DNA of 46,534 bases from positions 1 to 46,534 of the IMG/VR virus record IMGVR_UViG_3300010354_000145; one strand, written 5' to 3'. Under the pieces are notes generated by a model. The model had not been told where the DNA came from and did no database searches. It worked only from the letters and a program-made list of their open reading frames with translations. Numbering within the stretch: the first letter of the stretch is position 1; each line of letters opens with the position of its first letter. Positions 253-45,184 of the stretch are shown here, piece after piece. The position numbers and the translations under genes were made by a program. Origin of the DNA: a virus.

Positions 253-280
253 ACTGGGCCCCTGAAAGTGTCCCTATAGT
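253..280 (+). promoter_or_regulatory. Repeated promoter-like element, copy 1
   Basis: A 28-base element of the form ACTGGGCCCCTGA followed by AAGTGTCCCTATAGT, identical to copies 2, 4 and 5. TATAGT fits a -10 box, followed by a short A/C-rich leader and the 296 gene. No TTGACA lies 17 bases upstream, so GGGCCC/GAAAGTG may take that role. Recurrence only in front of small-gene clusters supports a regulatory role; the promoter function is inferred. Confidence 0.6.
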
Positions 281-295
281 ATGAGCACCACTATC

Positions 296-520
296 ATGGA
301 TCAAGTCTACTCCTACACGACCAACTGGAAAGAAGGCAAAGTCTGCCAAATGTTCATTCAGCAAGTTACACCTGAATGGCAAGAATGTGGTCACCAGTAT
401 GTTGCTATTGCTCTCAATCCTGAGACCAATAAAAGTATGGTGATGAGCAAACCGCGTTCCCATTATGATACTCTCCAATGGGTTCGTCGCTTCTGTGGTT
501 CATTCTCTCTCCTCTACTGA
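296..520 (+). CDS. Small hypothetical phage protein, 74 aa
   Basis: First gene of the mini-operon headed by element copy 1. The peptide begins MDQVYSYTTNWKEGK and ends FCGSFSLLY. It has several aromatics and three cysteines and no recognisable domain. An in-frame ATG at 281 would give 79 aa (MSTTI...). I prefer 296 because the base pair after TATAGT would be at or before the transcription start, and in copies 3, 4 and 5 the gene also starts 16-23 bases after TATAGT. The stop overlaps the next start (CTGATGATG), implying translational coupling. Function unknown. Confidence 0.65.
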   Translation: MDQVYSYTTNWKEGKVCQMFIQQVTPEWQECGHQYVAIALNPETNKSMVMSKPRSHYDTLQWVRRFCGSFSLLY

Positions 521-735
521 TGATGACTTTTACTAACGCATTGATCGCATCTGGTTATGTCTTTGATGATGAAAATTACGATGGTTGTTATGTAAAACAA
601 GATGCAGAAGGTTTCATTCATTGTTACCAAGAAGGTGAGGATGAAGGACTCTGGAATTATGTTAAAATGACTGATGAGTTTGATGTAATCCGTGAGGTTA
701 CTTTTGATCCTAATGTGAACACCATTCAGGAATGA
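520..735 (+). CDS. Small acidic hypothetical phage protein, 71 aa
   Basis: Starts at ATG 520, overlapping the previous TGA. An upstream in-frame ATG at 478 lies inside the preceding gene and is less likely. The product (MMTFTNALIASGYVFDDENY...) is acidic, with many Asp/Glu plus Tyr/Trp, and looks like a compact cytosolic early protein of a type recurrent in cyanophages. No catalytic motif is visible. Its stop again overlaps the next ATG, continuing the coupled array. Confidence 0.65.
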   Translation: MMTFTNALIASGYVFDDENYDGCYVKQDAEGFIHCYQEGEDEGLWNYVKMTDEFDVIREVTFDPNVNTIQE

Positions 736-902
736 TGATGATGAAAAACTACAAAATTACCGTTGAAACATTTGATGGGTTGCGTACTATTTGGTACGAA
801 AAGTCGAAAGCAAAGAAAGCACCAACACTCATTTGCAATCGTGTCTATCAACAACTCTGTGGATTGAACATTAAAGAAATCGACGTTACTCTCTCTGTTT
901 GA
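735..902 (+). CDS. Small basic hypothetical protein, 55 aa
   Basis: Begins ATGATGATGAAA at 735, overlapping the previous stop, and ends with TGA at 900-902, which overlaps the next ATG. The sequence (MMMKNYKITVETFDGLRTIW...) suggests an N-terminal beta hairpin followed by a Lys-rich segment (EKSKAKKAPTL). Its basic charge contrasts with its acidic neighbours. No family recognised. Reality is supported by exact stop-start overlaps at both ends. Confidence 0.6.
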   Translation: MMMKNYKITVETFDGLRTIWYEKSKAKKAPTLICNRVYQQLCGLNIKEIDVTLSV

Positions 903-1123
903 TGATGACTAACCTGCAAGAGTTCTACGATTATGTTCTCTCTTTCTATGGTGATGGTGGATTGTATCCTATGAGTGCAACATTGGACCTGATTGAACAA
1001 GCAACTCTCACACATCTTCAGATACTTGAACTGAAAGGAAATGAGTTCTGTGGTGATAGTGTTGACCGTGAATGTGTAAGAGATTTGTTAATCTCCAAAT
1101 ACAAACTTTCATTCCCAAACTAA
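902..1123 (+). CDS. Small conserved-type phage protein, 73 aa
   Basis: ATG at 902 overlaps the preceding TGA; a TTG three bases earlier is not needed. The sequence MMTNLQEFYDYVLSFYGDGGLYPM... with a later GDSVDRECVRDLL block resembles, from memory, a small helical protein recurrent in cyanophages and other phages, of unknown function. Predicted mostly helical, acidic and cytosolic. It sits in the middle of the first mini-operon, four bases before the next gene. Confidence 0.65.
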   Translation: MMTNLQEFYDYVLSFYGDGGLYPMSATLDLIEQATLTHLQILELKGNEFCGDSVDRECVRDLLISKYKLSFPN

Positions 1124-1127
1124 TCCT

Positions 1128-1271
1128 ATGAAGTACATTGTTGAGTTATACGTTGGCGGCAAAGTCTTCAAGGAAGAAGTGCAAGCAACCAACCCAAAAG
1201 ATGCAAGAGAAACAGCATTAGCTAGGAATCCCAAGGCAAAAGTTGTTGGCGTCAATGTTTCTTTCAAGTAA
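1128..1271 (+). CDS. Small hypothetical protein, 47 aa
   Basis: ATG at 1128 follows the previous stop by four bases. The product (MKYIVELYVGGKVFKEEVQA... ending AKVVGVNVSFK) looks like a beta-hairpin, helix, beta-strand mini-domain: a strand pair around GGK, an Ala/Arg/Asn-rich helix, and a final Val-rich strand. It is the last gene of the first mini-operon. Its TAA overlaps the first base of element copy 2. Function unknown. Confidence 0.6.
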   Translation: MKYIVELYVGGKVFKEEVQATNPKDARETALARNPKAKVVGVNVSFK

Positions 1272-1298
1272 CTGGGCCCCTGAAAGTGTCCCTATAGT
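1271..1298 (+). promoter_or_regulatory. Repeated promoter-like element, copy 2
   Basis: All 28 bases are identical to copy 1. Its first A is the last base of the preceding TAA stop codon, so there is no spacer between the upstream gene and the element. It heads the 1314/1478/1705 cluster. Confidence 0.6.
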
Positions 1299-1313
1299 AT
1301 GAGCACTCAACAA

Positions 1314-1478
1314 ATGACTTTCACCGTCCGTTTCGATTCCAATGCTCTCGATTCTCCTGAGTTCATTGGACCTTTCTACACTGAAGAAGAAGCACAAGAT
1401 TATGCTGATGATCGCAATGGTTCGTTAGCACTTGCTGGTATTCCTTCCTCTGTTGCTTGTTACTCTGTTGTTGATTGA
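1314..1478 (+). CDS. Small hypothetical protein, 54 aa
   Basis: Starts MTFTVRFDSNALDSPEF and ends SSVACYSVVD. An in-frame ATG at 1299, directly after TATAGT, would add MSTQQ. The 1314 start keeps the same 15-base leader length as the 296 gene after copy 1 and is preferred. It contains the acidic segment YTEEEAQDYADDRNG, resembling the 'front of a strand, then EEA helix' layout of small host-interaction proteins, but no known family. Stop TGA overlaps the next ATG. Confidence 0.55.
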   Translation: MTFTVRFDSNALDSPEFIGPFYTEEEAQDYADDRNGSLALAGIPSSVACYSVVD

Positions 1479-1708
1479 TGATGAAAACATTAACACTCCA
1501 AGTCACAGAAGTTTCGTTTGATTTTGATGATGAAGATTTCACTGTAGAAGAACAACAAGAGGTCATCAATTCTGTTGTTGGTAATGTCTTTGAGGTAGAA
1601 GTTGAGGACGATGATGATGAAACGATTGCAAATTGCCTGGTTGAAGAAGTCACAGATTACACTGGTTGGTGTGTCTTTGGTCTTGATTTTGTCCACATTC
1701 TGAAATGA
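1478..1708 (+). CDS. Very acidic small phage protein, 76 aa
   Basis: ATG at 1478 overlaps the preceding stop. By my count the product carries about 21 Asp/Glu against two Lys, in runs such as FDFDDEDFTVEE and EVEDDDDE, giving a strongly negative small protein. The ends are hydrophobic strands (TLTLQVTEV; WCVFGLDFVHIL). Similar short acidic proteins recur in cyanophages without assigned function. DNA mimicry is conceivable from charge alone but is speculation. Its last codons overlap the next start (AATGATC). Confidence 0.65.
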   Translation: MMKTLTLQVTEVSFDFDDEDFTVEEQQEVINSVVGNVFEVEVEDDDDETIANCLVEEVTDYTGWCVFGLDFVHILK

Positions 1709-1989
1709 TCTCCCTTCCTAATCCTACAAGTAAAATGTCACTCACTCAAGAACAATACGATAAACTGCTCGCAGCATACATTGAGCGGATTGTTGGTGGA
1801 ATGGATCTCGGCAGTTTGATGGAGTTTGCATCCGAACAGTTGGAACTTAATCTCCGTCAGAATTGCTCACTTGATGAAGAATTGATTGATGAGATTTGTT
1901 GGATTTGTGATGATGAAGTTGCTGCTGATTTGTTAGAATCTGTGGGCGCCAATCCTGCTGATTTTGATGTGAATGTTGATGAAAGTTGA
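1705..1989 (+). CDS. Acidic helical hypothetical protein, 94 aa
   Basis: ATG at 1705 overlaps the previous TGA (ATGA). An internal ATG at 1735 (MSLTQEQYDKLLAAY...) would give 84 aa and is a plausible alternative start, as similar cyanophage proteins begin there from memory. The body is helical and acidic, with IDEICWICDDEVAADLLE near the C-terminus. It is the last gene of the copy 2 mini-operon, just before element copy 3. Function unknown. Confidence 0.65.
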   Translation: MISLPNPTSKMSLTQEQYDKLLAAYIERIVGGMDLGSLMEFASEQLELNLRQNCSLDEELIDEICWICDDEVAADLLESVGANPADFDVNVDES

Positions 1990-2000
1990 GGCAATTAAAA

Positions 2001-2028
2001 TTACTCACCTCTAAAGTGTCCCTATAGT
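2001..2028 (+). promoter_or_regulatory. Repeated promoter-like element, copy 3 (divergent upstream half)
   Basis: It retains the 16-base core AAAGTGTCCCTATAGT exactly, but the upstream half reads TTACTCACCTCT instead of ACTGGGCCCCTG. This defines the conserved core and suggests that GGGCCC is dispensable. The ATG immediately after TATAGT opens only an 8-codon frame here, so it is not the gene start. Confidence 0.5.
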
Positions 2029-2044
2029 ATGAACATCTCGCACA

Positions 2045-2197
2045 ATGAGTCGTAAAAGTTTAACATTCAAGTCCCCCGACAAAATGAAAACAATTCTCCT
2101 GATCTTCGCCATTGTTTTATTCCTCTCACCACCAGTAAGGTACACAACGTCTCAAACATTGCACACCGTAGCAGACATTATCTCTCCTCATGATTGA
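2045..2197 (+). CDS. Small single-pass membrane protein, 50 aa
   Basis: ATG at 2045 is 16 bases after the element's TATAGT. A basic N-terminus (MSRKSLTFKSPDKMK) is followed by a hydrophobic segment (TILLIFAIVLFLSPP, about residues 15-30) and a polar tail, fitting an inserted membrane peptide with its N-terminus in the cytoplasm, or an uncleaved signal anchor. An internal ATG (M14) directly before the hydrophobic segment is an alternative. It overlaps the next gene by 8 bases. Function unknown. Confidence 0.55.
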   Translation: MSRKSLTFKSPDKMKTILLIFAIVLFLSPPVRYTTSQTLHTVADIISPHD

Positions 2198-2312
2198 AAC
2201 TGATTATTACATTCTCCCCGAAGAAATCCACTCAGAGATTATCATTGAAGCAAACAAACTTAATGTCTCTGTTGATTACTTTCTGATGGAGTTCTGTAAG
2301 GTTGATGATTAA
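2190..2312 (+). CDS. Small acidic hypothetical protein, 40 aa
   Basis: ATG at 2190 lies inside the end of the 50 aa gene. The product MIETDYYILPEEIHSEIIIE... ends VDYFLMEFCKVDD and looks like two short helices. Its TAA stop runs straight into element copy 4 (TAAACTGGGCC), the same arrangement as at 1269-1271. No family recognised; the coupled position is the main support. Confidence 0.5.
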   Translation: MIETDYYILPEEIHSEIIIEANKLNVSVDYFLMEFCKVDD

Positions 2313-2340
2313 ACTGGGCCCCTGAAAGTGTCCCTATAGT
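2313..2340 (+). promoter_or_regulatory. Repeated promoter-like element, copy 4
   Basis: All 28 bases are identical to copies 1, 2 and 5. TATAGT is followed by ATAAG rather than ATGAG and then an A/C-rich leader (CACACACACAAACCACA) to the ATG at 2364. Here the downstream part clearly acts as an untranslated leader. Confidence 0.6.
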
Positions 2341-2363
2341 ATAAGTCACACACACAAACCACA

Positions 2364-2678
2364 ATGCGAGTCATCGAACGCCAAATGAATGATGCAATCC
2401 AACAAGAAAAGGATTGGAAGAAAGATAACACTGAGGTCGTCAATTATTCCAATGTTTCTGATGTGTTTCTGTATGGTAATCTGATTGCTCGGATAGGCGA
2501 AACCTGGATCGAATTGTTCGATGGAGGTTATCAGTCAGCAACCACAAAGAGTCGCCTTAATGCTATTCTTGCTGCTCATGGTTGCGACAATGAGTATGTC
2601 TTCCAGAAGAAAGGTCAGTGGTTTGTTCAATACAATGGAGGACCGATTCCTTTCTTCTCAGGTATGCGTCTCGCTTGA
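2364..2678 (+). CDS. Conserved-type small phage protein, 104 aa
   Basis: Starts at ATG 2364 after a 23-base A/C-rich leader. The order is a helical N-terminus (MRVIERQMNDAIQQEKDWKK), the strands VFLYGNLIARIG and IELFDGGYQS, a TTKSRLNAIL helix, then VFQKKGQWFVQYNG. The pattern of a DGG(Y/W)xS turn followed by TTKSRLNAIL is, from memory, a family widespread in cyanophages and other phages with no assigned function. It shares a transcription unit with the 43 aa gene and the terminator downstream. Confidence 0.75.
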   Translation: MRVIERQMNDAIQQEKDWKKDNTEVVNYSNVSDVFLYGNLIARIGETWIELFDGGYQSATTKSRLNAILAAHGCDNEYVFQKKGQWFVQYNGGPIPFFSGMRLA

Positions 2679-2688
2679 AATTAAAACA

Positions 2689-2820
2689 ATGATTGAAACA
2701 CTCCTTGCATCACTTGTCGTCGGTCAGGTTATCATCGGACCAAATCTTTTGCAAACTGATTACCTAACTGAACGTGAGGAAATTATCACTATAGTGGAGA
2801 CAATACAAGAAGTTCGTTAA
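2689..2820 (+). CDS. Small hypothetical protein, 43 aa
   Basis: ATG at 2689, ten bases after the preceding stop. A longer reading from 2521 overlaps the 104 aa gene and is rejected. The N-terminus MIETLLASLVVGQVIIGPN is hydrophobic and could be a short membrane segment; the C-terminus (EREEIITIVETIQEVR) is charged and helical. It is the last gene before the terminator at 2828. Function unknown. Confidence 0.5.
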   Translation: MIETLLASLVVGQVIIGPNLLQTDYLTEREEIITIVETIQEVR

Positions 2821-2827
2821 TACATAG

Positions 2828-2854
2828 AGACCCTACTCATAGGGTCTTTTTTTT
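2828..2854 (+). terminator. Rho-independent terminator
   Basis: Perfect 7-base arms AGACCCT / AGGGTCT, extended by an A-T pair, close a CTCA loop and run into eight T residues. It sits 7 bases after the 43 aa gene and ends the early-type block of coupled small genes. Confidence 0.9.
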
Positions 2855-3159
2855 ATGCTTTTTATACAAAATAACGTTAAAAACGATTAAAAAAGCCTTT
2901 TTTAATTATAGCTAAGTGTTTTTATTCGTTTATGCTTGTTAAGTCTTTATGCGTCTAAAAGCATAAACGAATGGGGCATTTATGTGCTTTTAATCCTCTG
3001 AGACCTTGTGATTTATGTGCTTATAAATGTGCCGGGTGCTTGTGATCTTTGGCGTCATTGTATCAGCACTCCGCGAAAAAGTCAAGACCCCCCGAGTTAT
3101 CAAATCCCCACACATCCCCGCACAAAATCCCCCAACCGCTCATAAATACTCCCCAGGAC
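2855..3159. other. Non-coding region with inverted and iteron-like repeats
   Basis: About 300 bases without a convincing gene. It contains a near-palindrome with 9-base arms around one C (2887-2905); a 14-base perfect inverted repeat ATTCGTTTATGCTT / AAGCATAAACGAAT (2924-2937 and 2959-2972, 21-base spacer); TTTATGC at 2852, 2929 and 2946, and inverted at 2961; a 12-base direct repeat ATTTATGTGCTT at 2978 and 3011; and C-tracts between 3088 and 3154. The density of repeats suggests a regulatory or replication-related site, but no family is recognised. Confidence 0.6.
2924..2972. repeat. 14-bp perfect inverted repeat, 21-base loop
   Basis: Arms 2924-2937 and 2959-2972 are exact reverse complements. 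The loop contains another TTTATGC. No T-run follows, so it is not a typical terminator. It could be a protein-binding cruciform or an RNA hairpin. Confidence 0.75.
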
Positions 3160-3188
3160 TTGACAATAATTCCAGAGCATCTTACAAT
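3160..3188 (+). promoter_or_regulatory. Consensus sigma70 promoter
   Basis: TTGACA at 3160-3165, a 17-base spacer, and TACAAT at 3183-3188. This is an almost perfect host-type promoter, 27 bases before the 57 aa gene at 3216, and differs from the repeated 28-base element used by its neighbours. Confidence 0.8.
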
Positions 3189-3215
3189 ACCTCTATACAC
3201 ATTCGGAGCGTACTT

Positions 3216-3389
3216 ATGTCGGTTGCTTATTCCCAGGCACAGAAGCAGCGTTATAGAATCACTCTGGATCTATCAGTGTTCGGTGACTTCGACCCACACC
3301 AGATTGATTGGGAGAAGTTATTCAAGCTAGAACCTGCAGAGAAGTGTGAAGCTTATGTGGAAGATCTTAATGCACCTGATCGTTGGTGA
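3216..3389 (+). CDS. Small hypothetical protein, 57 aa
   Basis: I chose ATG 3216, which follows the sigma70 promoter at 3160-3188 and a GGAG ribosome site (CGGAGCGTACTT). A longer frame from 3027 would run through the promoter and is rejected. The product MSVAYSQAQKQRYRITLDL... continues with FDPHQIDWEKLFKLEPAEK, a charged helical segment, and ends in NAPDRW. No family recognised. Its own strong promoter suggests high early expression. Confidence 0.65.
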   Translation: MSVAYSQAQKQRYRITLDLSVFGDFDPHQIDWEKLFKLEPAEKCEAYVEDLNAPDRW

Positions 3390-3418
3390 GTTGGTAACAA
3401 CGAACGTCGGTGAGTATT

Positions 3419-3446
3419 ACTGGGCCCCTGAAAGTGTCCCTATAGT
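3419..3446 (+). promoter_or_regulatory. Repeated promoter-like element, copy 5
   Basis: Identical over 28 bases to copies 1, 2 and 4. It is followed by GTAAGG and a purine/A-C-rich leader to the GTG start at 3467. Confidence 0.6.
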
Positions 3447-3466
3447 GTAAGGACGCAACGCAAACA

Positions 3467-3712
3467 GTGAGCACCACCTACCAGCACAATGCTCTCGACA
3501 TTTCTTATAACGGTTGGGAGAACTATGAGACCTGGAATGTTGCACTCTGGATCAACAATGATGAGGGTCTTTATCACCTTGCTATGGAGTGTGGTGATTA
3601 TCAATCCTTCTGTGATTGTGTCGGTTCTGATGCAGTAACTGGTGATGGGGTTCGTTATAATGACCCCAAGGTAAATGTGATCCAAATCAATAGCGACGTG
3701 TTCGACCTGTAA
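3467..3712 (+). CDS. NYETW-type small phage protein, 81 aa
   Basis: Starts with GTG (GTGAGCACC), 20 bases after TATAGT of element copy 5. No ATG is available upstream in frame. The core NGWENYETWNVALWINND is a signature I recognise from a widespread family of small phage proteins annotated only as a domain of unknown function (DUF7249-like, from memory). The rest is acidic, with CGDYQSFCDCVGSD. It is likely an early or accessory cytosolic protein; function unknown. Confidence 0.75.
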   Translation: MSTTYQHNALDISYNGWENYETWNVALWINNDEGLYHLAMECGDYQSFCDCVGSDAVTGDGVRYNDPKVNVIQINSDVFDL

Positions 3713-3791
3713 GGTATAACAAAGGGGAATGAGATGCGCCTTATAAAGACACTCAGTTCACACACAGTTTCTAACACTTTTCTTTTTGATT

Positions 3792-3932
3792 ATGTCCAAG
3801 TCTGTTCTCATTTCTCTGCTTGCACAAGGTAACACTGGCGCGGAGATTCTGCAGATTCTTGATAGTCTTACAGAGGACAATCAGCAGTCCATTTCTTATA
3901 ACGAACCGACTGCAGATCCTATTGAGTTCTGA
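3792..3932 (+). CDS. Small hypothetical protein, 46 aa
   Basis: ATG at 3792 (MSKSVLISLLAQGNTGAEIL...). The N-terminal half is an amphipathic helix of the form LISLLAQGNTGxxILxILDSL, which I recall from several cyanophage small proteins; the tail SISYNEPTADPIEF is acidic and disordered. An 80-base leader separates it from the NYETW gene, so it may be cotranscribed. No function is known to me. Confidence 0.6.
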   Translation: MSKSVLISLLAQGNTGAEILQILDSLTEDNQQSISYNEPTADPIEF

Positions 3933-21107: not shown

Positions 21108-22661
21108 ATGTCCGCAATTATAACTGACCAACTCAGAATTTTAAATGCAAAGAATTTTGTAGCAGCAGCAACTTCTTCTACAAATTCTTATTATTCTTTT
21201 ATTGGTCTACCAAACGCATCTGATTATTCCTCAACCTGGGATGCAACTCCCCCTGCACCAAAAGATAGTTTTGAGCAGGAGAATGATTATTGGGATACTA
21301 TGATTGCTTTGAAAAAAATTTCTGCTGGAGATGTAAATCAAGTTGTAAAGAAAAATATTTGGACATCCGGTACAACTTATGATATGTACCGTCACGATAT
21401 TAGTAGAACAAATACATCAAAACCATCTGGAGCAACTAGCCTATACTCTGCAAATTATTTTGTAATTAATGAAGATTATAAAGTTTATATCTGCCTTCAA
21501 AACGGAACAAATCCAGAAAATCCAACAGGCAGACCATCTCTTGATCAACCAACCTTTACTGATCTAGAACCAAGAACTGCCGGTGATAGTGGTGATGGAT
21601 ATATTTGGAAATATCTTTATACAATTAAACCAAGTGAAATTGTAAAATTTGATTCTACTAATTTTATGCCTGTCCCAAAAAATTGGGAAGCTAGCACTGA
21701 TAATGCAGCAGTTAGAGATAATGCTTTAACAAGTGGTCAGTTAAAAATCGTGACCATTACAAATCGTGGAGTTGGATTGGGAACAGCAAATAGAACTTAT
21801 ACAAGAGTTCCTATTAAAGGAGATGGATCTGGAGCTGAAGTAACAATAGTTATCAATAACGATTCAAAAGTAGATTCGGTTACAGTTTCTCGCGGTGGTT
21901 CTGGATATACTTACGGAACTGTTGATTTGATTTCTGGCGGGGTTCCAACAGGTTCAACTTCTCCGATTTTTAATGTGATTATACCACCTCAAGGAGGTCA
22001 TGGTTCTGATATTTACAGAGAACTTGGTGCATCGAATGTTTTAGTTTACTCTAGAATAGAAAACGATACAGAAAATCCAGATTTTATTACAGGAAATCAA
22101 ATTGCTAGAGTTGGAATTGTAGAAAATCCAGAAACATATGGTTCTTCTACACTTTTATCTGAAAGTAAAGTTAGTGCGATTTATGCACTTAAACTAACTG
22201 GAATTGGGTATAGCACAGCATCTTTTACTGCGGACTCAAGAATTACTCAGACAATTGGTGTTGGTTCCACTGCAGTTGGGAGAGTTGTTTCATACGACTC
22301 AGCGACTGGAGTTCTTAAATACTGGCAAGATAAATCTTTGGTTGGGTTTAATAGTGATGGGTCCCAAAATATTTCACCAACTTATGGATTTAACTTAAAT
22401 AGATTTACATCTTCACCATCAACTGGAGGATCTGTAAATATTATTGGGGGTAGTGTTACCCTAGGAATAGACACAAGTTTTACAGGCGTATCTACTACAA
22501 TAAATAGTAGAACATATTACCTTGGTCAATCCTTTATAAATGGGATTTCAAATCCAGAAGTTAAAAAATATTCTGGAAACATTATTTACGTTGATAATAG
22601 ACCTTCAATAACTAGGTCAACAAACCAAAAAGAAGATATCAAAGTTATTTTGCAATTCTAA
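21108..22661 (+). CDS. gp8: Baseplate wedge subunit gp8
   Basis: A 517 aa protein, longer than T4 gp8 (334 aa). gp8 binds the wedge between gp7 and gp10. The N-terminus MSAIITDQLRILNAKNFVAA, the segment YYSFIGLPNASDYSS and the block YDMYRHDISRTN...YKVYICLQNGTNPENPTGRPS (in parts) fit cyanophage gp8. The motif DSGDGYIWKYLYTIKPSE is especially typical. The extra length includes a GxGY-type insertion near residues 215-290 (VTVSRGGSGYTYG). It lies between the gp7-like and DUF4815 genes, as in T4-like order. Confidence 0.88.
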   Translation: MSAIITDQLRILNAKNFVAAATSSTNSYYSFIGLPNASDYSSTWDATPPAPKDSFEQENDYWDTMIALKKISAGDVNQVVKKNIWTSGTTYDMYRHDISRTNTSKPSGATSLYSANYFVINEDYKVYICLQNGTNPENPTGRPSLDQPTFTDLEPRTAGDSGDGYIWKYLYTIKPSEIVKFDSTNFMPVPKNWEASTDNAAVRDNALTSGQLKIVTITNRGVGLGTANRTYTRVPIKGDGSGAEVTIVINNDSKVDSVTVSRGGSGYTYGTVDLISGGVPTGSTSPIFNVIIPPQGGHGSDIYRELGASNVLVYSRIENDTENPDFITGNQIARVGIVENPETYGSSTLLSESKVSAIYALKLTGIGYSTASFTADSRITQTIGVGSTAVGRVVSYDSATGVLKYWQDKSLVGFNSDGSQNISPTYGFNLNRFTSSPSTGGSVNIIGGSVTLGIDTSFTGVSTTINSRTYYLGQSFINGISNPEVKKYSGNIIYVDNRPSITRSTNQKEDIKVILQF

Positions 22662-22667
22662 AGACTC

Positions 22668-25600
22668 ATGCCACAAGAAACGAATCTTAACGTCTCTCCT
22701 TATTTTGATGACTTTGATCCTACTAAAGGATATCATAAAATTTTATTTAAACCAGGGTATCCAGTTCAGGCTAGAGAATTAACAACTTTACAATCAATAT
22801 TACAAAATCAAATTGAGCAGTTTGGAACTCATACTTTTAAAGAAGGAACTCCTATAATTGATGGAAGTATAACTTATAGAAATGACTTAAATGTCGTAGT
22901 TATAGAAGATCAATATCAAGGAATATCAGTAGAGTTAATTTTACCTTATTTAATAGGAAAAAAAATTAAAGGACAAACTAGTGGTATAACCGCTGTAGTA
23001 AATTCATATCTTATACCATCATTGTCCTCAATTGGTAGAACTACTCTTTATGTAAATTATCTAGATTCTAGTTCTTCAAATAATGAAAATAAAGTATTTT
23101 TAGATGGAGAAACTCTTTTATTTGAAGATGAAGCGGAATCTTTATTTTTGAATGAAAATTCTTCTTCTTTACCCCAAAGATCGGAAGGATTTGCAATAAC
23201 TGTCTCTCAAAATTGCACTACAATTGGATCTGCGGTTTTCATTGATAATGGAGTTTATTTCATCAGAGGATATTTTGTACAAATATCTAGGAATACTTTG
23301 TATTTGGATCAATATTCAAATAATCCAAGTTATAAGGTAGGTTTGCGTATTTTTGAAGAATTTATTAATTCATACGAAGATTCTACTTTAAATGATAATT
23401 CTCAAGGATTTTCAAATTATGCTGCTCCTGGAGCAGATAGATTTAAGATAACCGCAGTTTTAGACAAAATTGGATTAGATTCTACAGATAATGAAAATTT
23501 TGTTCAACTTTTAGAAATAAGAAATGGGATTCTAATCTCTGCTAATAGAACTACAGAGTATAATAAACTTTCTCAAGAGTTTGCTAGAAGAACATTTGAT
23601 GAATCTGGGGATTATTATATTAAACCACCAAATATTACAGCACAAGAAACTTTAAATGATTTAAAAGGAAACAATGGGGTATTTCTAGAAAATCAATTAA
23701 CTTATAATAATAACTTCCCAAGCGAAGATATTGGAACATATACAATTTCTCCATTAAAAGCATATATTAGAGGATTTGAAGTTGAAACTATTTCCCCAAC
23801 ATTTATAGATTTTAAAAAACCAAGAACTACTAAAATTTTAGAAAATCAATCTATCAATTATTTTACTGGTCCAACATATACGCTGAATAGAGTATATGGA
23901 TCTCCTATAGTTAGTATTTCTACCTCTTATACAGTAAGTCTTAGGGACTCAAGAGTTGGATTATCACAGACTACAGCACCAGGAACGGAAATTGGTCTTG
24001 CAAGGGTTTATGATTTTGCATTAGAGTCTGGATCATATAACACATCAAATTTAGACACAAATCAATGGGACATATCTCTTTATGATGTCCAAACATACAC
24101 TGCTGTTGAATTAAATGAACCAATAACTATTTCAGTTCCTACACACATTAAAGGAAAAGAGAGTGGGGCAATTGGATACCTTAGATATGATGTTTCAAAC
24201 AATAGAAATCTAACTGTATACGATACTAAAGGCAAATTTTCTCTTGGAGAAAAATTAATTTTTAATGGAATTGAGAACACACGAGTTACTACTAAAGTTA
24301 AAAATTATGGAACTGGAGATGTTAAGTCTTTATATGGAATAGTTGGAAGTGCTTATACTTTTACGGCAGATACAGTTCAATCTACTTTATCAATTATAGG
24401 TCAAGTATCAATTACACAACAATCTGGTGGAATTAGCACAGTCACTTCTTCAAATGCAAATTTTGTTGGAGTTGCGTCTACTGGTAATTTAGTATCTTTT
24501 TCAAATCCCGGATTATCGACAAATACTTATGCAAAAATTGAAAGCGTTTCTTCAAATTCACTAACAATTAGTGGATTAACAACTGTTATTGGCGTTGCAG
24601 ATGGCGGATTGCCGACAGTAACTATTAATCCATCTGATTTTAAAATTTTAACAACCTCCCTTCAATCATCTGTAGATAATACGCTTTATACAGTTTTACC
24701 AAAACAAAATATTGCTTCAGTAGATTTTACTAATTCTAGTTTAACAATTAGAAAACAATTTGACGTTACAATTACTTCCAATTCTACAGGGTCTATTACA
24801 GCATCCACAAATGAAACGTTTTTGCCATATGATGAAGAAAGATATGTGTTAATTCGTGAAGATGGATCGACAGAACCGTTAAGCTCTGATAAATTCTCTT
24901 TTACAAATGGATCCCAAACTTTAACTATTAATGGTCTTGGATCAAACGGAAATGCTAAATTAATTACAACTCTCAGAAAGATTAATATCAAATCTAAAAT
25001 TAAAGTAAAAAATAGAATAAAATCTATTATTGTAGATAAATCAAAATATTCTGCTTCTGGTACTGGAACAACAACTTTAAATGATGGACTTACTTATGGA
25101 AATTATCCATATGGAACTAGAGTTCAAGACGAAGAAATTTGCTTACTTGAACCTGATGTAACTAAAATATATGGAATTTTTGAATCTAATGACACGAATA
25201 ATCCAGATTTGCCGTCTATTATTCTAACATCACTTTCTGGCCCAACTAATAAAACTGGAGATCTTCTCATCGGAGAAGAATTTATTGGAGAAACAAGTCA
25301 GTCTATTGGTATTTACAGCGAAAAAATTAATGATTTAAAAATAGGATTTAATTATTTAAATTCAAATACTTTTATAAATGGAGAAAAAATAACTTTTAAA
25401 GACTCTGGTATTACTGGATTTATATCTTTGTTGGACGCTGGAGATAGAGACATTACTTCTCAGTTTATTTTAGAATCTGGACAAAAAGATACAATTTATG
25501 ATCAATCAAAAATTATTAGAAATTCTACGTTCAAAGAACCCACAAAAAAACTCAAAATATTTTTTGAATCTGCAAGTTTCTTGTCTGCAGATACTGGAGA

Positions 25601-34618: not shown

Positions 34619-35056
34619 ATGAAAATGACGAAAAAATTTGATAATCTCAATGAAACTTTTAACGTAGATGGTGATATTGTTCCTGTTAAATCAGAGCAAG
34701 TTTCCAATGAAATAGAAAAGTATGCTTCAGCAGCAGATGATATTAAAAAAGATTATGAATACGCTAGAGGCAATTTGTATTCTTTAGTTGAAAAAGGGCA
34801 GGAGGCAATTAACGGTATTCTTGAATTAGCGCAAGAAAGTGAAATGCCTAGAGCTTATGAAGTTGCAGGTCAATTGATTAAAAACACAAGTGAAATTGCA
34901 GAAAAACTGATGGCGCTGCATAAGGTTAAAAAAGATGTTGAAGAAGAAAAAACAAAAGGTCCTACTACAGTAAACAATGCACTTTTCGTTGGATCTACTG
35001 CAGAGTTAGCTAAATTATTAAAACAACAGTCTCAAATAGACGATGAAAACATTTAA
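34619..35056 (+). CDS. gp16: Small terminase subunit gp16
   Basis: A 145 aa protein (T4 gp16 is 164). It forms the ring that regulates the gp17 packaging motor and recognises DNA. It is predicted all-helical, with NEIEKYASAADDIKKDYEYA, GNLYSLVEKGQEAINGILEL, SEMPRAYEVAGQLIKNTSEI and the C-terminal ALFVGSTAELAKLLKQQSQI, all fitting cyanophage gp16. ATGs at 34619 and 34625 are both possible. Its end overlaps the next small gene by 14 bases. Confidence 0.88.
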   Translation: MKMTKKFDNLNETFNVDGDIVPVKSEQVSNEIEKYASAADDIKKDYEYARGNLYSLVEKGQEAINGILELAQESEMPRAYEVAGQLIKNTSEIAEKLMALHKVKKDVEEEKTKGPTTVNNALFVGSTAELAKLLKQQSQIDDENI

Positions 35057-35198
35057 ACAGTTTCAAGAAGAGTGGACTAATAAATATAAAAAGAGTATTG
35101 ATTGCTCCAATCCGAAAGGATTTTCTCAACGTGCTCATTGTGCAGCGAGAAGAAAAAGAGCAAAAGGTGAAGAGACTAAATCAAAACCAGTTGAATAA
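35043..35198 (+). CDS. Small basic head-internal-type protein, 51 aa
   Basis: MKTFKQFQEEWTNKYKKSID resembles the capsid-targeting N-terminus of T4 internal proteins (MKTYQEFIAEA in IPI). It continues CSNPKGFSQRAHCAARRKRA, a basic module known to me from other phages, where it ends in a KTKSKPV-like tail; here it ends ETKSKPVE. This suggests a DNA-binding protein packaged in the head and perhaps trimmed by gp21. It overlaps gp16 by 14 bases, and its TAA overlaps the next ATG. Confidence 0.65.
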   Translation: MKTFKQFQEEWTNKYKKSIDCSNPKGFSQRAHCAARRKRAKGEETKSKPVE

Positions 35199-43589: not shown

Positions 43590-43910
43590 ATGAAATCTTT
43601 CAGGCAATTTATCTCAGAATCAGTTAATATTGCTGGCGATTTCACAGGAAATCTTTACATTAACTCGCAACAAGAACAACCACAACAAGTTGGTGAAGAA
43701 TATGTTGCAGATGTAATGTGGAATGGAAGTTTATATCGTTTAGAATTAGTTACTAAGACTGGAATTCCATCAGTAAGAGATCTTGGTGAACAATTACAAT
43801 CCGATTATCCCGGAGCAGTTGTTCATCAAATTTATCCAGTTACAGAAAAGAATTTAAACATCAAAAACGCACAAAGATATCACCCATCAAAATTGGAATG
43901 GATTGATTAA
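43590..43910 (+). CDS. Head core/internal-type protein, 106 aa (gp68 position)
   Basis: ATG 43590 gives MKSFRQFISESVNIAGDFTG. The opening MKxFxxF(I/L)xE resembles T4 internal-protein capsid-targeting sequences, and ISE at residues 8-10 fits the gp21 (I/L)xE cleavage rule. Residues 40-90 (VADVMWNGSLYRLELVTKTG, LGEQLQSDYPGAVVHQIYPV) share a layout with a domain of the 583 aa protein. By position it corresponds to gp68. A longer reading from 43560 overlaps gp67 and is not needed. Its TAA overlaps the next ATG. Confidence 0.7.
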   Translation: MKSFRQFISESVNIAGDFTGNLYINSQQEQPQQVGEEYVADVMWNGSLYRLELVTKTGIPSVRDLGEQLQSDYPGAVVHQIYPVTEKNLNIKNAQRYHPSKLEWID

Positions 43911-45184
43911 TGGCTCAGTGGAATAAAAAGACTCAAGATTTTTTAGATCAAGAAAGATCTTTATTTGAAGTTTTTAATATCGCAGATCACTGGGGTAACC
44001 AGACAGACTGGAGACCTCAGTTTTCTAATAACAACAGACTTAAGACTGCACCTTTCCAAACAGTTTTCTTTAATACTTTCCAATATGGTAAAGAGACTGA
44101 TGTTTGGGATGAGAGAATAGTTGGAGTTGGAACTGCAACTTGGAACCAATATTCCAGTAATATAATTATGCAAGTTGGTTCTACCGCTGGTAGTAAAGTT
44201 ACCAGACAAACCAAACATGTGATGAGATATATTCCAGGCAGACCAGCAACACTTGCATTTGCAATTCGTCTTGATACTCCACAGGTCGGTATTCGCAGAA
44301 GATTTGGTTTATTTGATGATAATAACGGTGCATACTTTGAGGATAATGGAGGAACATATTCTTATGTGATTCGCACTAGTACATCTGGAATTACTACAGA
44401 AATAAGAGTTGGTAGAAATGAATGGAATGGCGAAAAGTTTGATGGTAATGGTTGGACTGGTGTAACTGCAGATCCAACAAAACAACAGATGATTTCTATC
44501 AACTACGAATGGTATGGTGCAGGAACTGTAGATTTTGCTTGGTTGATGAAGGGAGAAACTATCAAGAGTCATACTTTTGATAACTCAAATACAAATAATT
44601 TTGTTTGGTGTTCTAGTCCCTTTCTCCCAATTCGCTGTGAGATTGAGAATGTAACTGGTGTTGCAGGAACGCATTATCTTTATCAGGGTTCAAATTCTCT
44701 AATTCAAGAAGGTGGAGCAGATAAACTTGGAACTCTTTTGAGTCAGTCTAATGGTATTACTGGAACCACAATGGCGGTTGCAAATACATTCTATCCGATC
44801 ATCAGTTTAAGACTCAAATCATCTGCTTTAAATTCAGTAATGCTTATGAGATCACTGCAAGCAGTAACAAATGATAATACTAATATTTACTGGAAAGTTT
44901 TGCAGAACACAACATTAACCAATCCAAACTGGACAAATCATGCAGATCCAGATTCATTTATTCAATATGATACTTCTGCAACTGCACTTTCTGGTGGTAG
45001 AGATATTCTTTCTGGATTTGTAGTATCTGGTGGTTCTACTCTGATTGAGATTGATAGACTTGCAGATTTGCAGATTGGAAGATCTGGTATTGGAACAATC
45101 AGTGATACGATTACACTTGCTTGTGCATCTCCCAATACTAACAAAGCAGCACTTGCGGTGTTAAACTGGATTGAACAAAGGTAA
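43910..45184 (+). CDS. Probable virion structural protein, 424 aa
   Basis: ATG overlaps the preceding stop (TAATGG). The N-terminus QDFLDQERSLFEVFNIADHW resembles, from memory, the beginning of several cyanophage virion proteins. The middle is beta-rich (KHVMRYIPGRPATLAFAIRL, GIRRRFGLFDDNNGAYFEDN, KQQMISINYEWYGAGTVDFA) in a lectin/concanavalin-like jellyroll style; the C-terminus has GGRDILSGFVVSGGSTLIEI. No signal or membrane segment. Position between core genes and gp21 suggests a head decoration or fibre protein expressed late. Function inferred. Confidence 0.65.
   Translation: MAQWNKKTQDFLDQERSLFEVFNIADHWGNQTDWRPQFSNNNRLKTAPFQTVFFNTFQYGKETDVWDERIVGVGTATWNQYSSNIIMQVGSTAGSKVTRQTKHVMRYIPGRPATLAFAIRLDTPQVGIRRRFGLFDDNNGAYFEDNGGTYSYVIRTSTSGITTEIRVGRNEWNGEKFDGNGWTGVTADPTKQQMISINYEWYGAGTVDFAWLMKGETIKSHTFDNSNTNNFVWCSSPFLPIRCEIENVTGVAGTHYLYQGSNSLIQEGGADKLGTLLSQSNGITGTTMAVANTFYPIISLRLKSSALNSVMLMRSLQAVTNDNTNIYWKVLQNTTLTNPNWTNHADPDSFIQYDTSATALSGGRDILSGFVVSGGSTLIEIDRLADLQIGRSGIGTISDTITLACASPNTNKAALAVLNWIEQR

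Follow-up and report, generated by a model that had tools for sequence, protein, structure and literature searches.

Repeated promoter-like elements with phage-private boxes in T4-like cyanophages, and a candidate virion-borne protein that would read them

What drives, and what could recognise, the cassettes of very small genes at the beginning of the virus record IMGVR_UViG_3300010354_000145? This 46,534-base record, analysed over its whole length and hereafter called the window, comes from a T4-like cyanophage related to S-SM2 (Kyanoviridae, Nilusvirus), and its cassettes are headed by copies of one short element. The element combines a core shared among phages with an upstream box that is private to each of them, and this box is matched by the C-terminal part of a phage protein family, here named BOXBP. 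On the sequence evidence, the elements probably form a phage-private promoter class recognised by BOXBP as a virion-borne DNA-binding protein.

A sequence-only reading of the window had described four identical 28-base repeats and a fifth, divergent one, and this description was accurate. The 28-mer ACTGGGCCCCTGAAAGTGTCCCTATAGT occurs exactly at 253-280, 1271-1298, 2313-2340 and 3419-3446, and its 16-base core AAAGTGTCCCTATAGT is also found exactly at 2013-2028, behind a divergent upstream half, TTACTCACCTCT. When up to three mismatches were allowed, the window held six core sites, five of them exact and all on the + strand, against a mean of 0.52 in shuffled windows (0 of 100 shuffles reached six). 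The sixth site (2780-2795, three mismatches) lies within an open frame and is probably due to chance. Small genes were likewise found behind every copy, as had been stated, with 5, 3, 2, 2 and 2 open frames behind copies 1 to 5 and many overlaps of the form ATGA or TGATG. Absent from the earlier description were the ATG standing immediately 3' of TATAGT in copies 1-3, and the identity of the divergent half of copy 3, which is the usual box of other phages such as SynMITS9220M01. The five copies are the following.

253-280, + strand: element copy 1, box ACTGGGCCCCTG at 253-264, core at 265-280; ATG at 281
1271-1298, + strand: element copy 2, box at 1271-1282, core at 1283-1298; ATG at 1299
2001-2028, + strand: element copy 3, foreign-type box TTACTCACCTCT at 2001-2012, core at 2013-2028
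2313-2340, + strand: element copy 4, box at 2313-2324, core at 2325-2340; then ATAA, gene ATG at 2364
3419-3446, + strand: element copy 5, box at 3419-3430, core at 3431-3446; then GTAA, gene GTG at 3467

The exact core was present in at least 120 stretches of viral contigs; among the matches listed, a single stretch holds as many as 11 copies, always on one strand. Same-strand arrays (at most three mismatches) were found in S-SM2, in SynMITS9220M01 and in the IMG/VR records G001-G005 and G007, so that the proposal of a dedicated element class heading same-strand cassettes was borne out in related cyanophages as well; in S-SM2 and SynMITS9220M01 the arrays precede the gp25/gp6 baseplate wedge genes. 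Fourteen other records had no arrays (Syn9, P-SSM2, S-PM2, S-SCSM1, Bellamy, Syn19, P-HM2, DSL-LC02, S-CRM01, S-SSM7, S-SKS1, P-SSP7, S-8S53 and S-SCSM2R), each holding 0-5 scattered core-like sites, all with three mismatches except one (Syn19 has a two-mismatch site at 124380); a reversed-pattern control gave 1-3. The core followed by RTRA had no match in a collection of 84,980 bacterial and archaeal species. Loci were gathered in three ways (by the exact core, by a neighbouring gene and by similarity to BOXBP), each giving the matches listed and not a total; some loci share a contig, so that not all are independent phages, and identical elements and proteins were dropped. Among 80 loci fetched through the neighbouring gene, which encodes 255 amino acids (aa), 27 had the element at the score used, although many of the 80 hold little upstream sequence. 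This gene does not imply the element, since L203, L238, L257 and L273 hold 10 kb and show none.

Taking the first A of AAAGTG as position 0, the element can be written as a shared core, AAAGTGTCC[C/T][T/A][A/G]TAGT-RTRA, preceded by a box of about 12 base pairs (bp). In a profile of 236 distinct flanked copies, positions 16-19 read RTRA, position 22 is A in 85%, and the leader is rich in A and C and poor in G. The only near-constant upstream positions are -9 (G in 89%) and -5 (C in 98%, in a profile that kept candidates lacking this C; the start-codon, 95-locus identity, terminator and 673-element box-type counts given below dropped such candidates and cannot test -5). The rest of the region from -13 to -1 is variable when phages are pooled and almost constant inside each phage. 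The suggestion that an unusual box takes the place of TTGACA is therefore upheld: the box varies between phages and no -35 like TTGACA is found. Boxes of six array-bearing phages are given here.

S-SM2: AAGGGGGGTCG
SynMITS9220M01, mostly: TTACTCACCTC
G007: GTTAGTAACCTC
G005, mostly: ACTGGGCCCT
G003, mostly: CTCTGGGGCCTT
G002: ACTGAGCC

Across 95 loci with at least three elements (drawn from 151 loci with elements, 207 scanned), identity in box columns -12 to -6 was 0.85-0.97 within a locus versus 0.29-0.44 between loci, column -9 giving 0.97 and 0.71, respectively; in the core columns the two values differed by at most 0.12. The box type of the locus itself was carried by 657 of 673 elements (92 loci), that of another phage by 15, among them window copy 3, and neither by one. 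The earlier reading, which overlooked that the box is phage-specific and tracks a protein domain, had also supposed that cassettes are shuffled by recombination at the repeats. The 15 foreign-type elements lend this idea weak support; gene import with window copy 3 did not emerge, the relatives of its genes coming from phages of many box types. A peptide-coding role for the core was set aside, as changes in the core are not silent (by eye).

Two observations bear on whether the element starts transcription. Of 843 distinct elements, 23 have a predicted intrinsic terminator ending 7-24 nucleotides (nt) upstream of the box, a 7-fold excess over random places in the same loci (a terminator within 25 nt in 32/8430, and in 53 within 40 nt). 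In L016, L023, L101 and L293, of which L016 and L101 are near-identical, a terminator, an element and a gene follow in succession, the abutting ATG being the only nearby start. Because such terminators leave little room for another start site, the element itself would start transcription, as far as terminator predictions can tell. A host -10 upstream of the box was considered and rejected: TAnnnT is in clear excess only at -17 (277/843 versus 125.6 expected), which we attribute to TAA stops adjoining boxes that start with GTT.

The second observation concerns the ATG immediately behind TATAGT, which 257 of 566 copies possess. At least 20 codons stay open in its frame in 95% of these copies, as against 1% and 26% for the other two frames, and where another ATG occurs within 60 nt, it shares that frame in 149 of 180 cases. 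Among the 309 copies that lack an abutting ATG, 49% have the corresponding frame open; there the next ATG is mostly found 15-23 nt on, and its distribution over the frames (130/83/79) shows a much weaker preference. A larger set gave 384/400 open frames behind the abutting ATG versus 195/380 behind GTA or ATA. With genes grouped by protein similarity, the next ATG was in frame in 45 of 57 groups, out of frame in 7 and missing in 5; no further in-frame ATG, GTG or TTG occurred within 15 codons in 163 of the 400 copies. The clearest case is a DUF6267 gene, whose N-terminal motif is conserved in the Syn9 and S-PM2 homologues. Since close to half the copies have an abutting ATG that serves as the start codon, RNA should start at or before it, and the earlier assignment of TATAGT as a -10 with a start 5-9 bases downstream found no support.

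What could read a private box? A first whole-protein scan for families covarying with box mismatches put SynMITS9220M01 43833-44471 on top (r = -0.93). Its 13 members mostly have ACTGGGCC-like boxes, SynMITS9220M01 being the one strong exception, and L070, whose box is almost that of the others, was less similar than L116, whose box is another; the family was set aside because it offers too little box variety. In the alignment of BOXBP (S-SM2_065, 193 aa; the S-SM2 member has no Pfam match at E 0.5), the C-terminal part was seen by eye to change with the box, and the family was picked in this way before correlations were run by protein part and by 40-column window. Among 29 families with at least 15 loci each, the 40-column window that best tracks box identity is in the BOXBP C-terminal part (r = 0.61); the runner-up (r = 0.45) is the top one among some 200 windows in a protein of 2058 columns. 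Over 39 loci (39 of 42 distinct proteins), the C-terminal part gave a Mantel r of 0.57 with the box and the other parts 0.14-0.24; controlling for the N-terminal part left the C-terminal part a partial r of 0.53, and the reverse control gave 0.06.

Because the C-terminal part had been chosen after looking, we tested it on new loci, gathered by their similarity to BOXBP. From 77 of these (66 with elements, 53 with at least three, 59 with a readable protein), 32 were held out once duplicates of training or test proteins had been dropped. When each box was predicted from a neighbour among the 42 training proteins, choosing the neighbour by C-terminal domain gave a mean of 11.16 correct positions out of 12, choosing it by N-terminal part 9.94 and choosing it at random 5.99. 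At least 10 of 12 positions were right in 30 of the 32 loci with the C-terminal part versus 24 with the N-terminal part (Wilcoxon p 0.002, only a guide, as the held-out loci are related and near relatives remain). In L288, L321, L353, L283, L357 and L323 the N-terminal neighbour gave 3-6 of 12 and the C-terminal one 8-12; in L293 and L343 the N-terminal neighbour was better by 1-2 positions.

Elements and BOXBP also occur together. A profile search found BOXBP in 7 of 25 records, all seven bearing arrays (the G004 reading contains one in-frame TAA), and in none of the 14 array-less phages named above. It gave no match in the window (G000), G001, G006 or G008 despite their elements, which in all four lie near one end of the record.

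The family further resembles proteins packed into T4 heads. TAAATA, the core of T4-type late promoters, stands 20-45 nt upstream of 78 of 90 BOXBP genes versus 508 of 4310 open reading frames (ORFs) (11.8%), and to judge from this motif BOXBP would be expressed late. The N-terminus reads MKTFQxF, with F7 in 90/90 and F4 in 87/90, residues 1-4 being fixed to M[KRQ][TS][FLI] by the search pattern; E10 is present in only 47/90, and a loosely defined cleavage-like motif in 72/90. T4 IPIII, translated here, starts MKTYQEFIAEA, and IPI starts MKTFKEF. According to PMC9026906, the first ten residues of IPIII suffice for packaging, residues 4 and 7 serving in targeting and 8 and 10 in processing. BOXBP has a T4-type capsid-targeting N-terminus with these key residues 4 and 7. 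With the pattern used, N-termini of this kind are uncommon, numbering three in S-SM2, one in SynMITS9220M01 and none in Syn9 or S-PM2. Given this start and the late-promoter motif in most members, BOXBP is probably packed in the virion and injected. The window itself holds, at 35043-35198, a small basic 51-aa ORF with a capsid-targeting-like start (MKTFKQFQEE), perhaps another packaged protein.

The mechanism that we propose is as follows. Each element would be the promoter of a small-gene operon, with transcription probably beginning inside the element, at or before the often-abutting ATG. BOXBP, probably made late, packed in the head and injected with the DNA, would bind the box through its C-terminal two-helix domain and activate rather than repress, steering RNA polymerase to the phage's own arrays; being probably injected with the DNA, it would make these arrays switchable at once in the next cell, early in infection.

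A number of results weigh against this proposal. The main tension is that the bases that matter most in a sigma-70 -10 are present in TAGTRT, implying a start beyond the used ATG: a sigma-70-like TATAGT or TAGTRT would set it about 5-9 bases beyond the A of the abutting ATG. For an RNA that starts no later than that ATG, no canonical -10 is suitably spaced. The abutting ATG is also not always a gene start, since at window copy 3 (ATG at 2029) its frame has only 8 codons and the gene starts at 2045 instead, and at least 9 of the 163 copies with no other start have an early stop (60 of 118 kinds listed). In 820 of the 843 copies no terminator directly precedes the box, so that read-through can feed most cassettes, and some phages have a core variant of their own (AAAGTGGACC in L205, AGATTGTCC in L202). 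As to the reader, BOXBP ranked only fifth in the first whole-protein scan (r = -0.31), and all its parts correlate with the box above permutation over the 39 loci (p 0.004 or less), for which reasons part of the signal is shared ancestry. In an AlphaFold2 model of BOXBP, confidence is confined to two C-terminal helices (159-189 and 196-210), and a PDB profile search with the protein gave no matches. A VIA fold search had as its best hits (Z 4.8) helical proteins of unrelated function.

Among the other explanations, an ordinary sigma-70 promoter would have TATAGT, or TAGTRT two bases on, as its -10, a start 5-9 bases downstream and the box as a deviant -35, the abutting ATG mattering only in read-through RNA. 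It agrees with the core, where T12, A13, T15 and T17 are among the most constant bases and T12, A13 and T17 occupy key places of a possible TAGTRT hexamer, with the A/C-rich leaders and the next ATG mostly 15-23 nt on where none abuts, and with an analogous repeat in S-PM2 that has a better TATAAT. A host sigma factor would not, however, explain a box private to each phage and tracking a protein domain, and many genes have no plausible start other than the abutting ATG (the 163/400), DUF6267 being one example and some standing right behind a terminator; we therefore regard this explanation as unlikely. The used ATG means that box and core could themselves be transcribed, which opens the way to an element acting in RNA: cassettes would be transcribed from upstream promoters, and BOXBP, which is very basic (28% K+R in S-SM2), would bind the box in RNA, aiding translation or guiding cleavage at TAGT/RTRA. 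The many successive cassettes with no terminator directly before the box would suit such an arrangement. Against it stand the 7-fold excess of terminators shortly upstream of the box (23 of 843 elements, at 7-24 nt) and the failure of box-core base pairing across box types, a hairpin of the two suiting some types and not others (by eye only), and it appears distinctly unlikely.

Copies that are alike within a genome, with occasional foreign ones, might result from gene conversion homogenising a neutrally drifting box. Conversion tracts are not expected to respect a 12-bp border, yet within-genome identity falls outside -13 to -4 while the adjoining core hardly differs between genomes, and the C-terminal domain predicts the box in held-out loci, which makes this origin very improbable. 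A promoter of a single-subunit, T7/Syn5-like phage RNA polymerase, with the box as its specificity region, was suggested by one box type: ACTGGGCCCCTGAAA followed by G resembles the Syn5 promoter ATTGGGCACCCGTAA followed by GGG at 11 of 15 positions by eye (Syn5 sequence from PMC3950665). Most other boxes are unlike it (by eye), and this reading is rejected as extremely improbable because PF00940, among 25 records, was found in P-SSP7 only and in none of the 24 others, the complete S-SM2 and SynMITS9220M01 included.

Phage-private promoters read by an injected protein, the explanation that we prefer, would have partial counterparts in known systems. In T4 middle promoters (MotA box, sigma appropriation by AsiA; PMC2988021), a phage protein recognises a phage-specific box that lies near -30 and stands in for the -35. 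In the present case each phage has its own box, no Pfam match was obtained for the S-SM2 BOXBP, the expected -10 spacing conflicts with the used ATG, and BOXBP looks late and virion-borne whereas MotA is an early product. Promoter-early stem-loops (PeSLs) of T4-like phages likewise form repeated promoter cassettes among small genes, with a stem-loop terminator before some copies (PMC4503421); in the present elements a terminator adjoins only 23 of 843 copies, and a joined stem-loop is not a regular feature. The T4 internal head proteins (IPI-III and Alt) share the type of N-terminus (MKTFQxF in BOXBP, MKTYQEF in IPIII), and Alt is injected and acts on early transcription; none of them is described as reading a specific promoter box in the passages covered of PMC2988021 and PMC9026906. 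The virion RNA polymerases of N4 and phiKZ-like phages are also virion-carried factors for early genes, but BOXBP, at about 190 aa, is too small for a known RNA polymerase. The Syn5 promoter shares its 15-bp similarity with one box type, and no such polymerase gene is found in the complete genomes. The logic would resemble T4 middle promoters combined with T4 Alt, in a PeSL-like setting. No description of the element, of phage-private boxes or of a capsid-targeted promoter-specific cyanophage protein was found in the literature covered (titles and beginnings of abstracts, most subscription papers lying outside the coverage), and a text search for part of the core returned, among the matches listed, only unrelated papers.

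The cassettes behind the window's elements, with the hairpin closing the fourth, are as follows; three of seven translated frames have Pfam matches (Kyano_Gp96, DUF7249 and DUF7326) and the other four have none.

281-1271, + strand: cassette 1, five small open frames at 281-520 (or from 296), 520-735, 732-902, 902-1123 and 1128-1271
1299-1989, + strand: cassette 2, three small open frames at 1299-1478, 1478-1708 and 1705-1989, the last being DUF7326
2045-2312, + strand: cassette 3, two small open frames at 2045-2197 and 2190-2312
2364-2820, + strand: cassette 4, Kyano_Gp96 gene at 2364-2678 and a 43-aa open frame at 2689-2820
2828-2854, + strand: intrinsic-terminator-like hairpin, AGACCCTA / TAGGGTCT with a T run, closing cassette 4 (read from the sequence)
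3467-3932, + strand: cassette 5, DUF7249 gene at 3467-3712 and a 46-aa open frame at 3792-3932

Contig L107 is identical (100%) to window cassettes 1-3 and the start of cassette 4 (990, 697, 284 and 331 nt), diverges near the window's first bases, and continues upstream for another 5.3 kb or so, where it has four additional elements of the ACTGGGCC/ATTGGGCC type. On its reverse strand, at about 1905-3606 and upstream of where the window starts, an element is followed, to judge by eye, by a possible nuclease of 249 aa and then a protein of 320 aa bearing a DPPF methyltransferase motif. In S-SM2, a gene for an MjaI-type restriction endonuclease (50147-50674, L127 10148-10675; PF09568, E 1.2e-46), already annotated as a restriction enzyme, lies directly behind a box with a degenerate core at 50103. 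Elsewhere elements are followed by hairpins or by sequence with no obvious gene, possibly small RNAs (S-SM2 51940; SynMITS9220M01 41436 and 42546; L019, L026 and L041); L041 has such a gene-less stretch, GAAGGGAxACTACAGGG, behind an element, and L019 a similar one. The window also has a textbook sigma-70 promoter (TTGACA at 3160-3165, 17 nt, TACAAT at 3183-3188) with GGAG before an open frame at 3216, the whole spanning 3160-3218, so ordinary host-type promoters are probably also used by this phage. Other cyanophages may have promoter arrays of their own: in S-PM2, which lacks the element, nine copies of an analogous repeat lie at 21809-24605 (L191), often with a hairpin, then a CCCCTATAATGAC-like stretch, TCAGTTCAAACGA and an ATG.

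As a plausible, still tentative extension, BOXBP could be a virion-delivered, self-specific key: an injected protein with an exchangeable C-terminal domain that recognises only its own boxes, leaving foreign-box cassettes or co-infecting relatives silent until recoded. If true, lytic phages would thereby possess a private addressing system that drives their lock-and-key diversification. The element and its presumed reader suggest, in a form open to testing, how these T4-like cyanophages might turn on their many small genes of unknown function, and the series of box types paired with a series of small protein domains forms a natural set for learning protein-DNA recognition. The results suggest that a head protein, once injected, could serve as a transcription factor for particular promoters, and that private promoter codes can exist in lytic phages, where foreign elements leave a visible record.

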